Below, piece by piece: positions 16,349 through 21,348 of a stretch of 64,000 nt of DNA; within the stretch, counting starts at the first letter, position 1, and every line of letters begins with the position of its first letter. The translations under genes and the position numbers were made by a program. The notes beneath the pieces are model-generated. The model ran no database searches and was not told the origin of the DNA. It saw only the letters and a list, made by a program, of their open reading frames with translations. Origin of the DNA: Thiohalobacter thiocyanaticus (lineage in GTDB: Bacteria > Pseudomonadota > Gammaproteobacteria > Thiohalobacterales > Thiohalobacteraceae); assembly GCF_002356355.1 (NCBI RefSeq), contig NZ_AP018052.1, positions 1,054,001 to 1,118,000 of the forward strand, written 5' to 3'.

Positions 16349-17193
16349 GACAGCTCCCGGTGACGGACCAGCACGGAAGGATATCGGCCGGCGAAGTGTT
16401 TGCCCAGCCTTTCCGCCATGTATACCGAGCGGTGCTGGCCGCCGGTGCAGCCGAGGGCGACGGTCAGGTAGCGCCGGTTCTCCTTCTCGAAGGCCGGCAG
16501 CCAGTCGTCGAGGAAGCGGCAAAGTTCCTGGAACATGGCATCCACCGGCGGCTGATCCTCAAGGTAGGCGATTACCGCCTGGTCGCGGCCGGTGAGCGGC
16601 CGCAGGCCCTGGACCCAGTGCGGGTTGGGCAGGCAGCGTACGTCGAAGACGAAGTCGGCATCGTCGGGCAGTCCGTGCTTGTAGCCGAAGGATTTGAACA
16701 GCAGCGACAGCGCGTCGGGCCGGGTGTCGGAGAGCCGCTCCTGCACCAGATCGCGCAGCTGGTGCAGATTGGTATGGGTGGTGTCGATGTGCAGCGTGGC
16801 GCTGCTCGCGATCGGTTCGAGCAGGTTGCGCTCGCCGCGGATGGCGTCGGCCAGGGTGGTGTCAGTGCTGGTCAGCGGGTGCTTGCGGCGGGTTTCGCTG
16901 AAACGCTTGAGCAGGGTCTCGTCCGTGGCCTGCAGGAAGACGATCTCGACCTGGATATCCTGGGTCTCGAGCCCGGCGAGGATGTCGCGGAAGCGGGACA
17001 GGTCCTGGCGGTGGTTGCGGGCGTCGATGCCCACGGCGGCCCGCGTCTGGCGAGCGGCGGTCAACTCCCGGGCCAGCGGTTCCAGCAGCGCCACCGGCAG
17101 GTTGTCCACGCAGTAGTAGCCCAGGTCTTCCAGGGTGTTCAGGGCCACGCTCTTGCCCGAGCCCGACAGCCCGCTGACGATGATCAGTTTCAA
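16345..17193 (-). CDS. rapZ: RapZ nucleotide-binding RNase adapter
   Basis: A 282-residue RapZ/YvcJ protein. Walker A is GLSGSGKS (8-15), and the C-terminal domain has the RNA/metabolite-binding blocks FKSFGYKHGLP and CTGGQHRSVYMAERL. In E. coli RapZ binds glucosamine-6-phosphate and delivers the sRNA GlmZ to RNase E, controlling glmS and so envelope precursor supply. The gene overlaps both neighbours by 4 bp (ATGA), in the conserved ptsN-rapZ-HPr order with hprK inserted between ptsN and rapZ. Confidence 0.95.
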   Translation of the reverse strand: MKLIIVSGLSGSGKSVALNTLEDLGYYCVDNLPVALLEPLARELTAARQTRAAVGIDARNHRQDLSRFRDILAGLETQDIQVEIVFLQATDETLLKRFSETRRKHPLTSTDTTLADAIRGERNLLEPIASSATLHIDTTHTNLHQLRDLVQERLSDTRPDALSLLFKSFGYKHGLPDDADFVFDVRCLPNPHWVQGLRPLTGRDQAVIAYLEDQPPVDAMFQELCRFLDDWLPAFEKENRRYLTVALGCTGGQHRSVYMAERLGKHFAGRYPSVLVRHRELS

Positions 17194-18122
17194 GGCTGCA
17201 TCTGTTCCCGCTGTCGTTGTATCAGTTCCTCGCCGGCGTCGTGGCCGCGCATGGTCAGGATATGCTTGCGGGTGGCGGCCTCGACCAGCACTGCCAGGTT
17301 GCGGCCCGGCGCCACCGGCAGGGTGATCTCGGGTACCTCCACCTCGAGGATGCGCCGGGTGTGATAGCTGCCGCGCAGGCGGTCGATCTGGCGCAGTTCG
17401 TCGTCGCTCATCTGCTGCAGGTGGATGATGAGGCGCAGGTACTTGCTGTATTTGATCGCGCTCTCGCCGTACATGGCGCGGATGTTGAGGATACCAAGGC
17501 CGCGCACCTCCAGGAAGTCACGCAGCACCGGCGGACAGTTGCCGCTGAGGATATCCGGGGCGACCTGGGCGAACTCGGGGCTGTCGTCGGCGATCAGGCG
17601 GTGGCCGCGGCTGATCAGCTCCAGCGCCAGCTCGCTCTTGCCGATGGCGGCGTCGCCGGTGATCAGCAGGCCGATGCCCATCACTTCCATGAACACCCCG
17701 TGGATCACCAGCTTGGTGGAGTGGTAATGGGTGTAGTAGTACTCGATGTGATTGATCAGTTCCGGCCCGTGCTGGGTGGAGGTGAGCAGGGGAGTGCCGC
17801 TGGCCGCTGCAGCCTTGCGCAGGTCGGCCGGCGGTGCCTCGTGGGCGAGGATGACGGCGTCGGTCACCGGGCTGAACAGGTGAGCCAGTGCCTCGCGCCG
17901 GCGGTCGGGCTCCAGATCGTCCAGATAGGCCAGCTCGATCCGGTCGATGATCTGGATGCAATGGTTGTGGATGAAATTAAGATGTCCGACCAGGGAGCCG
18001 GTCTGGGCGTCGTCGGTGCTGTCGAAGTGCAGGGGGCGTTCGCGGTCACCGCTGACCCAGGCCAGACCGAGGCGCCGCTGCAGGGCATCGAACAGCTCGC
18101 CCACGGTCAGATGCCTGCTCAT
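17190..18122 (-). CDS. hprK: HPr kinase/phosphorylase
   Basis: A 310-residue bifunctional enzyme that phosphorylates or dephosphorylates HPr on Ser46. The N-terminal HprK_N domain (1-125) precedes the catalytic domain with the P-loop GDAAIGKS and the HprK signature LEVRGLGILNIRAMYG. Enterobacteria lack it, but many other proteobacteria carry it beside ptsN/rapZ. It overlaps rapZ and ptsN by 4 bp. Together with Ser46 in HPr it suggests the PTS here is controlled by energy state (ATP, phosphate). Confidence 0.95.
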   Translation of the reverse strand: MSRHLTVGELFDALQRRLGLAWVSGDRERPLHFDSTDDAQTGSLVGHLNFIHNHCIQIIDRIELAYLDDLEPDRRREALAHLFSPVTDAVILAHEAPPADLRKAAAASGTPLLTSTQHGPELINHIEYYYTHYHSTKLVIHGVFMEVMGIGLLITGDAAIGKSELALELISRGHRLIADDSPEFAQVAPDILSGNCPPVLRDFLEVRGLGILNIRAMYGESAIKYSKYLRLIIHLQQMSDDELRQIDRLRGSYHTRRILEVEVPEITLPVAPGRNLAVLVEAATRKHILTMRGHDAGEELIQRQREQMQP

Positions 18123-18969: not shown

Positions 18970-19007
18970 GGTGCCACTCCTTAAGTGCGGATGATGTGTA
19001 TATGGGT

Positions 19008-20528
19008 TCAGGCGAGGCGCTTGCGCTCGTTGGATGGCGGAATGGCCATCGCCTCGCGGTATTTGGCGATCGTGCGCCGCGCGACGTTGATACCTTCCTC
19101 GGACAGCAGATCGGCGATCTTGCTGTCGCTCAGGGGTTTGGCGGGGTTTTCCCCCGCGACCAGCTTCTTGATCATGGCCCGTATGGCGGTGGCGGAACAT
19201 TCGCCGCCGTCGGCGGTGCCGACATGGCTGGAGAAGAAATACTTGAACTCGTAGATACCGCGCGGGGTATGCATGTACTTCTGGGTGGTCACCCGCGAGA
19301 TGGTCGACTCGTGCATCTCCACCGCCTCGGCCACGTCGCGCAGCACCAGCGGCTTCATCGCCTCTTCTCCATAATCGAAGAATGCGCGCTGCCGCTCGAC
19401 AATGCAACGGCCCACCTTCAGCAGGGTCTCGTTGCGGCTCTGCAGGCTCTTGATGAACCAGCGGGCCTCCTGCAGGTGGTTGCGCAGGTAATTGTTGTCG
19501 GCGCTGTTGTCGGCCCGTTTCACCATCCCGGCGTACTGGGAATTGATGCGCAGCTTGGGTACGGCGTCCGGGTTGAGTTCCACCCGCCACTGCCCCTTCT
19601 TGTCCTTGTGGACGAAGACATCGGGGATGACGTACTCGGCGGTGGCGGTGGAGATGGCCGAGCCCGGCCGCGGGTTGAGTGTCTGGATCAGGCCGATGAC
19701 CTGCTGCAGCTGCTCCTGGCTGAGCTTGAGGCGGCGCATCAGTTGCTGGTAGTCGCGCCCGCCCAGCAGATCCAGGTGCTGCTGGATCAGTTTCAATGCG
19801 GTATCGCGCCAGGGCGTGTCGGGATCGAGTTGCTTGAGTTGGATCTCCAGGCATTCGCCGGGCGAGCGGGCGCCGACCCCGATGGGGTCGAAGTGCTGGA
19901 TGCGGTGCAGTACCGCCTCGACCTCGTCGAGCTCGAGTTCCGGATGGCTTTCCAGCAGGCCCTGGTGGATGTCTTCCAGCGGCATGCCGAGGTAGCCGTC
20001 GTCATTGATGGAGTCGATGATGGCGGTGGCGATGGCCTGGTCGGTGTCGGTGAAAGGCGACATCTCCATCTGCCAGGTGAGGTGCTCCTGCAGGCTCTCG
20101 CTGCCGCTGTTGTGGGTTTCCAGGTAGTCGCGGTCATCGTCGCCGGCCGGGGCGCTGTAGCTGGTCGCGCCGGAGTCGTAGATGTCGTCCCAGCCGGTGT
20201 CCACCGGCAGGTCTTCGGGGATGTCGGTGGCGGTGGTGCCCAGGTCGGAATCGGCCTGGCTGTACTCGGTTTCGGCGCTGGTTTCGGCTGCCTCCGTGGC
20301 GGTTTCGGCGGCGGTTTCGGCTTCGGCCTCGCTGCGGCTGTCCTCGGTGTCGGTCTGGGTCTCCGGCTCGGTGCCGTCGACGGCCTCGAGCATCAGATTG
20401 GAGTCCAGCGCCTGCTGGATTTCCATCTGCAGTTCCAGGGTCGACAGCTGCAGCAGGCGTATGGCCTGCTGCAGCTGGGGTGTCATGGTGAGATGCTGGC
20501 CAAGACGAAGCTGTATCGACTGTTTCAT
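19008..20528 (-). CDS. rpoN: RNA polymerase sigma-54 factor
   Basis: A 506-residue sigma-54. Region I is Gln/Leu-rich ([20 protein letters not shown]), region II is an acidic low-complexity stretch rich in Glu, Ala and Thr (about 50-105), and region III holds the core-binding and helix-turn-helix domains and ends with the RpoN box [10 protein letters not shown], which reads the -24 element. The protein is complete. A sigma-54-like promoter lies in the 94-bp gap between lptB and rpoN, so the gene may control itself. Another candidate target is the PEP-CTERM gene at 729. Confidence 0.96.
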
Positions 20529-20588
20529 ATAGTTGTGTGTCGGGACTCGCGTGGCGGCATTGGCGGAATGGCGGAGTCTACCCTAACA

Positions 20589-20604
20589 AGCATTAATTGT
20601 GCCA
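20589..20604 (-). promoter_or_regulatory. Sigma-54 promoter candidate upstream of rpoN
   Basis: On the minus strand TGGCACAATTAATGCT has a perfect TGGCAC -24 element and a TGC -12 element, with the invariant GG and GC in the correct 12-bp register. It lies after the lptB stop and about 60 bp before the rpoN start, so transcripts would have a leader of about 50 nt. Confidence 0.55.
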
Positions 20605-20622
20605 CTGATCGGCCGGGATTGG

Positions 20623-21348
20623 CTAGAGCCTGAAATTTTCGCCAAGATAACAAGTTCTTACCTGTGCGTTGGCCAGCACCTCGGTCGGGCTGCCGGCCGC
20701 AATCTCGGCGCCTTCATTGAGAATATAGGCCCGATCGCAGATTCCTAAAGTCTCGCGCACGTTGTGGTCGGTGATCAGCACCCCGATGTCGCGGTCGCAC
20801 AGGTGTTTGACGATCTGCTGGATATCGCCGACCGAGATGGGGTCGACCCCGGCGAAGGGTTCGTCCAGCAGGATGAAGCGTGGCTCGGCGGCCAGCGCCC
20901 GGGCAATCTCCACCCGCCGCCGTTCGCCGCCGGACAGGCTGATGCCGGGTTGTTCGGCCAGGTGGCTGATATGCAGTTCGGCGAGCAGGGCCTGCAGGCG
21001 CTCCTCGCGGCCGGCACGGTCCAGCCCCTTGCGCGTCTCCAGGATCGCGAGCAGGTTCTCGCGCACGCTGAGCTTGCGGAACACGGAGGCTTCCTGCGGC
21101 AGATAGCCCACGCCGTGGCGGGCGCGCACATGCATGGGGGCCGCGGTCAGGTCCTGGCCGTCGAGTTCGATCCGCCCGCCGTCACAGGGAATCAGGCCGA
21201 CGATCATGTAGAAGCAGGTGGTCTTGCCGGCGCCGTTGGGCCCGAGCAGGCCGACCACCTCGCCGCTGGCGACCTCGACCGAGACCCGGTCGACGACGGT
21301 ACGGGACTTGAAGCGTTTGACCAGGTCGGTGGCGATCAGGCGCGGCAT
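20623..21348 (-). CDS. lptB: LptB, LPS export ABC ATPase
   Basis: A 241-residue ABC ATPase that powers LPS extraction by LptFG and transport over the LptC-LptA bridge. Walker [10 protein letters not shown] (36-44), signature LSGGERRR and Walker [14 protein letters not shown] are intact. lptA is 5 bp upstream, so the two are coupled. lptF and lptG are not in the window, as in most gammaproteobacteria. Confidence 0.95.

Follow-up and report, generated by a model that had tools for sequence, protein, structure and literature searches.

A conserved sigma-54 site between lptB and rpoN in Thiohalobacter thiocyanaticus and its possible role in limiting RpoN production

Sigma-54 competes with sigma-70 for core polymerase, and the control of its level has been little studied outside a few models. 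In the stretch of Thiohalobacter thiocyanaticus DNA that we analysed (64,000 nucleotides, hereafter the window), a sequence resembling a sigma-54 promoter lies directly ahead of rpoN, the gene for sigma-54 itself. We asked whether this sequence is a genuine sigma-54 site, and whether it would raise or lower the production of RpoN.

The site in the lptB-rpoN gap

The window carries a minus-strand cluster in the order lptA-lptB-rpoN-hpf, arranged like the E. coli order lptC-lptA-lptB-rpoN-hpf-ptsN. The features that concern us first are these:

20623..21348, minus strand: lptB, LPS-transport ABC ATPase, 241 aa (PF00005)
20589..20604, minus strand: sigma-54 -24/-12 element, TGGCAC, spacer AATTAA and TGCT, with GG at 20603-20602 and GC at 20591-20590; conserved in family and class
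20578, minus strand: predicted sigma-54 transcription start, placed purely by geometry at 12 nt beyond the C of GC
19008..20528, minus strand: rpoN, sigma-54 factor, 506 aa (PF00309, PF04963 and PF04552: activator-interacting, core-binding and DNA-binding domains)

The element, TGGCACAATTAATGCT, runs from 20604 to 20589 on the minus strand inside the 94-nt gap between the two genes, with 18 nt separating it from the lptB stop at 20623 and 60 nt from the rpoN ATG at 20528. A preliminary description had placed a sigma-54-type site with a perfect -24 element and correct spacing at this position, and we agree on all of these points: the -24 half, TGGCAC, is a perfect match, and GG and GC are 10 nt apart, the spacing required by sigma-54. 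The transcription start proposed there, near 20578, also fits the geometry and would give rpoN a 50-nt leader. The same description left unmentioned that the -12 half, ATGCT, has one mismatch to TTGCT/TTGCW, at -15. Both ATGCT and ATGCA forms are present among confirmed E. coli sigma-54 promoters; an ATGC -12 is carried by hycA (TTGGCACAAAAAATGCT) and hyfA (ATGGCATCCTTTATGCA), which are marked as experimentally confirmed. One might guess that ATGC marks a site for binding only, a guess to be set against its presence in hycA and hyfA.

By composition alone the site is not beyond chance in the window. TGGCACN6TGCW has two matches against 0.61 expected, a count reached in 9 of 100 shuffles, and the looser TGGN9TGC has 109. 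At the level of the organism, RpoN is intact with all three domains, the sigma-54 activator domain has 23 matches in the genome, 19 being strong, and TGGCAYN6TGCW sites number 52, compared with 14 for the reversed pattern. Among 30 of these 52 matches that were listed, eight are intergenic and stand ahead of an ORF of more than 150 codons; none of the eight has A at -15. One ORF behind such an intergenic site resembles fliL by sequence appearance.

Little else was found in the vicinity. A terminator scan of 20400-21000 found none, Rfam returned no RNA family over the window, and the repeats in the lptB-rpoN gap look like chance. The stretch just ahead of the rpoN ATG (20529-20545, minus strand; ACACACAACTATATG) is without a Shine-Dalgarno-like sequence, so translation of rpoN may be weak or coupled. 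On the plus strand, a mechanical ORF of 545 codons (18996-20633) runs antisense to rpoN and spans the gap; it is probably an artefact of high GC content.

Conservation of the site in relatives

We compared the gap in the window's family, where 11 genomes had an rpoN match; one (G008) was cut at a contig end, leaving 10 loci including the window's own. TGGCAC-N6-TGCW is present in the gap of all ten. In their alignment TGGCAC and ATGC are invariant while the rest drifts, and little else is kept. The preliminary description had taken failure to conserve the GG and GC positions as part of what would count against it; both are kept in 10/10 family loci, so that half of the objection falls away.

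For the class Gammaproteobacteria we pooled 227 loci (30 from the first rpoN matches, 80 named loci, and 117 usable of 120 fetched regions, with L151, L157 and L199 left out when the right rpoN start was not located). Removal of 12 duplicates and of 10 loci with a gap containing N, or with no lptB end within 500 nt, left 205 unique lptB-rpoN gaps. This sample favours that half of the rpoN genes which is closest to the window's (about 150 places, of 309 genomes with a match). TGGCAY-N6-TGC is found in 65 of the 205 gaps; in dinucleotide-preserving shuffles the mean was 0.26 and the highest count 2. With any other spacer (N0 to N13) between TGGCAY and TGC the count is 0-2 loci, and the reverse-strand pattern occurs in four. 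Because the loci were selected on TGGCA and TGC, the information content of these positions is predetermined, and we excluded it from the evidence. Despite its chance-level composition, the conservation of the rpoN-gap element in family and class identifies it, as judged by comparison of sequences, as a genuine and conserved sigma-54 site, and sigma-54 would be expected to bind it in T. thiocyanaticus.

The site is far from ubiquitous. Even the relaxed form [TC]GGCAY-N6-TGC is missing from 136 of the 205 gaps, so any feedback through it is not universal. The strict site is absent before rpoN in E. coli K-12, one Klebsiella aerogenes and one Aeromonas caviae, and the DNA of the window's gap has no match in E. 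coli genomes. On a tree of 101 RpoN proteins built by a quick method, presence of the site needs five changes. One group of 46 rows contains nearly all sites of the ATGC/GTGC type (41), together with one TTGC-type site and four rows without the motif; three further sites of the T/C type sit on scattered branches.

Some loci depart from the pattern. Three members of the 46-row group (L082, L089 and L090) keep AAATGCAGTAGAAT, and their upstream TGGCC stands 12 nt, not 10, from GC; these are natural losses of the sigma-54 spacing with the -10 retained. In an Acinetobacter baumannii locus (L264) the stretch just ahead of the rpoN ATG contains a near form, AGGCATGATTTTTGCT, with A at -26, which the strict pattern misses. 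In three others (L237, L255 and L216) a glmY-like form (TGGCACAGTTACTGC in L255) stands a long way upstream of rpoN, and a second -10-like stretch lies downstream of it.

A -10-type box beside the site

Most site-bearing loci have a second element at the site. TANNNT starts exactly 2 nt after TGC in 42 of the 65 gaps with the site; the strict site with TANNNT at this offset is thus present in 42/205 gaps, and in none of the shuffles. Outside the window's family the figure is 42 of 55 site-bearing loci, and any other offset is seen in at most two. L074 (TGGCATACTTAGTGCTaTATAATta) and L155 (TGGCACGAATGTTGCGcTAGAATat) are examples of the composite.

The box is also present where the sigma-54 motif is not. 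Counting six -10 hexamers (TATAAT, TAGAAT, TAAAAT, TATACT, TAGACT and TAAACT), we found one on the sense strand in 100 of the 136 site-less gaps and on the antisense strand in 18; the hexamers read backwards gave 39. Where the -24/-12 motif is missing, 35 of 134 gaps still have TGC-N2-TANNNT, against 3.3 expected from shuffles and 2-9 at other offsets. Together these counts suggest that a sigma-70-type promoter is general at this place, and the abundance of -10 hexamers in gaps without a sigma-54 motif argues against the -10 being a by-product of sigma-54. To judge from these motifs, then, a sigma-54 site overlies a sigma-70-type promoter in about a third of the gaps.

Loci of the window's family depart from this arrangement. 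TANNNT stands at offset 2 in none of its ten loci and at 8 or 9 in nine of them, as TAAATT, TAAAGT, TAGAGT, TAGACT or TAGATT (family form TAAAKT); the tenth (L003) reads TAAATC. In the window the corresponding features are:

20600..20605, minus strand: possible -35 box GTGGCA, lying within the -24 element at 19 nt from TAGACT
20575..20580, minus strand: candidate sigma-70 -10 box TAGACT, 9 nt after TGC, matching the consensus at 4/6 positions

By geometry, a sigma-70 start from TAGACT would be expected near 20568. The distance from the possible -35, xTGGCA, to the -10 box is about 18 nt in most relatives and 19 in the window, and a sigma-70 consensus scan of 20400-21000 limited to spacers of 16-18 nt reported no promoter. 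With a 4/6 match and a possible -35 at 19 nt, the sigma-70 promoter is weakest and least certain in the window itself; the -10-like box would presumably be used by sigma-70.

How the site may act on rpoN

Overlapping promoters of this kind have precedents. At glmY a sigma-54 complex represses an overlapping sigma-70 promoter unless the activator is on (PMC6075780, excerpt); sigma-54 and sigma-70 compete at glmY and glmZ, and glmZ transcription goes up in an rpoN mutant (PMC3844500, excerpt). PMC4591121 states more generally that sigma-54 represses where its site overlaps another promoter. The sigma-54 and sigma-70 promoters of glmY and glmZ in Enterobacteriaceae overlap, at glmY perfectly, with -24/-12 over a -10-type box as in the rpoN composite; the E. 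coli glmY promoter reads TTGGCACAGTTACTGCATAATAG. They differ from the rpoN loci in several respects. The glmY -10, which we read as CATAAT, starts some 3 nt closer to GC than the box of most rpoN loci does; its sigma-54 start is driven by the activator QseF/GlrR with three UASs and IHF, and no such sites were found at the rpoN locus; and the target in the window is the sigma factor's own gene. Binding of RpoN upstream of rpoN, as we propose for the window, has been seen by ChIP-seq in P. aeruginosa, with self-regulation stated on the authority of Kohler 1994 (PMC8855297); the available portion of that text gives neither the sequence of the site nor the sign of regulation.

The closed complex of the sigma-54 holoenzyme cannot open without an activator, and in P. 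putida the autoregulation of rpoN is negative. We think it probable that the sigma-54 site is overlaid on a sigma-70 promoter of rpoN and that the RpoN holoenzyme exerts negative autogenous control. When RpoN is abundant, the holoenzyme would occupy the site as a closed complex which, unable to melt DNA without an enhancer-binding protein, would keep sigma-70 polymerase off, and rpoN expression would drop to read-through from lptB. With little RpoN present, the sigma-70 promoter would be free, so that the net effect would be an RpoN level set through negative feedback. As at glmY, an activator could make this complex work as a sigma-54 promoter; none is indicated here. Autoregulation of rpoN by RpoN is likely, and taken together the glmY/glmZ, PMC4591121 and P. 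aeruginosa precedents favour negative control, making a negative or dual sign, by analogy, more likely than a simply positive one. Several points speak against this reading: a -10-type box that, throughout the window's family, is off its class position, at a variable 8-9 nt from TGC; the weakness of the candidate sigma-70 promoter in the window; and the lack of the site in many gaps and in the E. coli, Klebsiella and Aeromonas loci named above.

The preliminary description saw in the site a sigma-54-type promoter giving rpoN an autoregulated transcript from near 20578, which would make it an activated promoter with positive autoregulation. The conserved site does make rpoN a likely target of RpoN, and that part of the proposal stands. 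A good site with the right geometry and leader, the confirmed ATGC promoters of E. coli and the 19 strong activators of the genome would all suit such a promoter, as would a report that in several classes, the gamma class among them, rpoN is enriched downstream of predicted sigma-54 promoters, from which autoregulation is implied (PMC12316311). That study reads the rpoN case as sigma-54 transcription, and in its text 'repress' and 'overlap' each turn up once, in neither case for the rpoN promoter. A transcript driven mainly by sigma-54 nevertheless fits poorly with a -10-type box that overlaps or abuts the site in most site-bearing loci, with an A at -15 unlike the eight intergenic sites described above, and with the upstream sequence. 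Four dyad types (NtrC-type, TGTN10ACA and TGTN12ACA among them) searched in the 300 nt upstream at the ten family loci gave one TGTN12ACA, at one locus, and across 8 family rows and 29 further ones the 3' end of lptB bore no extra synonymous constraint that might point to an enhancer. With four dyad types covered, the missing dyads are weak evidence against activation. On balance we regard this promoter as unlikely, and a sigma-54-driven rpoN transcript as less likely than promoter occlusion.

If sigma-70 alone read the gap, with TGGCA as -35 and TANNNT as -10, the resemblance to sigma-54 would be incidental. The spacing of about 18 nt between xTGGCA and TAAAKT in the window's family would be usable by sigma-70, and the TGC-N2-TANNNT retained in gaps without the -24/-12 motif is in keeping with this. 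Outside the family, however, the offset-2 -10 stands 12 nt from TGGCA, too near for a -35/-10 pair, so TGGCAY needs another reader; loci there nonetheless retain TGGCAY at 6 nt from TGC. The -10 shifts between clades while the sigma-54 spacing stays constant, which is a good reason to believe that different proteins read the two elements, and we consider sigma-70 alone a very improbable explanation. Most A-type sites lie in one clade, so the loci are not independent, which would suit the site of some other regulator, or chance with shared ancestry. Against this, spacing and bases fit sigma-54 exactly, the site outlasts the surrounding gap in the family, TTGC forms are present on other tree branches and in the wider class sample, and the count is out of reach of shuffles; we give such an origin hardly any credence.

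A broader and more tentative picture we offer as possible but doubtful. In many Gammaproteobacteria the rpoN promoter may be composite, with a single TGC acting as the sigma-54 -12 and also bordering the sigma-70 -10 on its upstream side, so that gain or loss of TGGCAY 10 nt upstream would switch negative feedback on or off. The A fixed at -15 in the window's clade may make the site a trap for holoenzyme rather than a promoter, and in the family the -10 may have moved by 6-7 nt, with TGGCA doubling as -35. Self-regulation of rpoN is already known in Pseudomonas and implied for several classes, and overlapping sigma-54/sigma-70 promoters are known at glmY. Our literature search, many results of which were unrelated, did not find a composite of fixed geometry at rpoN, an ATGC form shared across a clade or the shifted -10 of the family, and we make no wider claim that these are unpublished. 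If true, a class-wide and geometrically fixed sigma-54/sigma-70 composite at rpoN would offer a simple, testable answer to how the level of sigma-54 is set, and some predicted sigma-54 promoters would serve as repressor sites for sigma-70.

Farther along the minus strand, an ORF at 17190-18122 resembles HPr kinase/phosphorylase by sequence appearance, with the Walker-type GDAAIGKSEL. It sits between ptsN-like and rapZ-like ORFs; in E. coli, rapZ directly follows ptsN.
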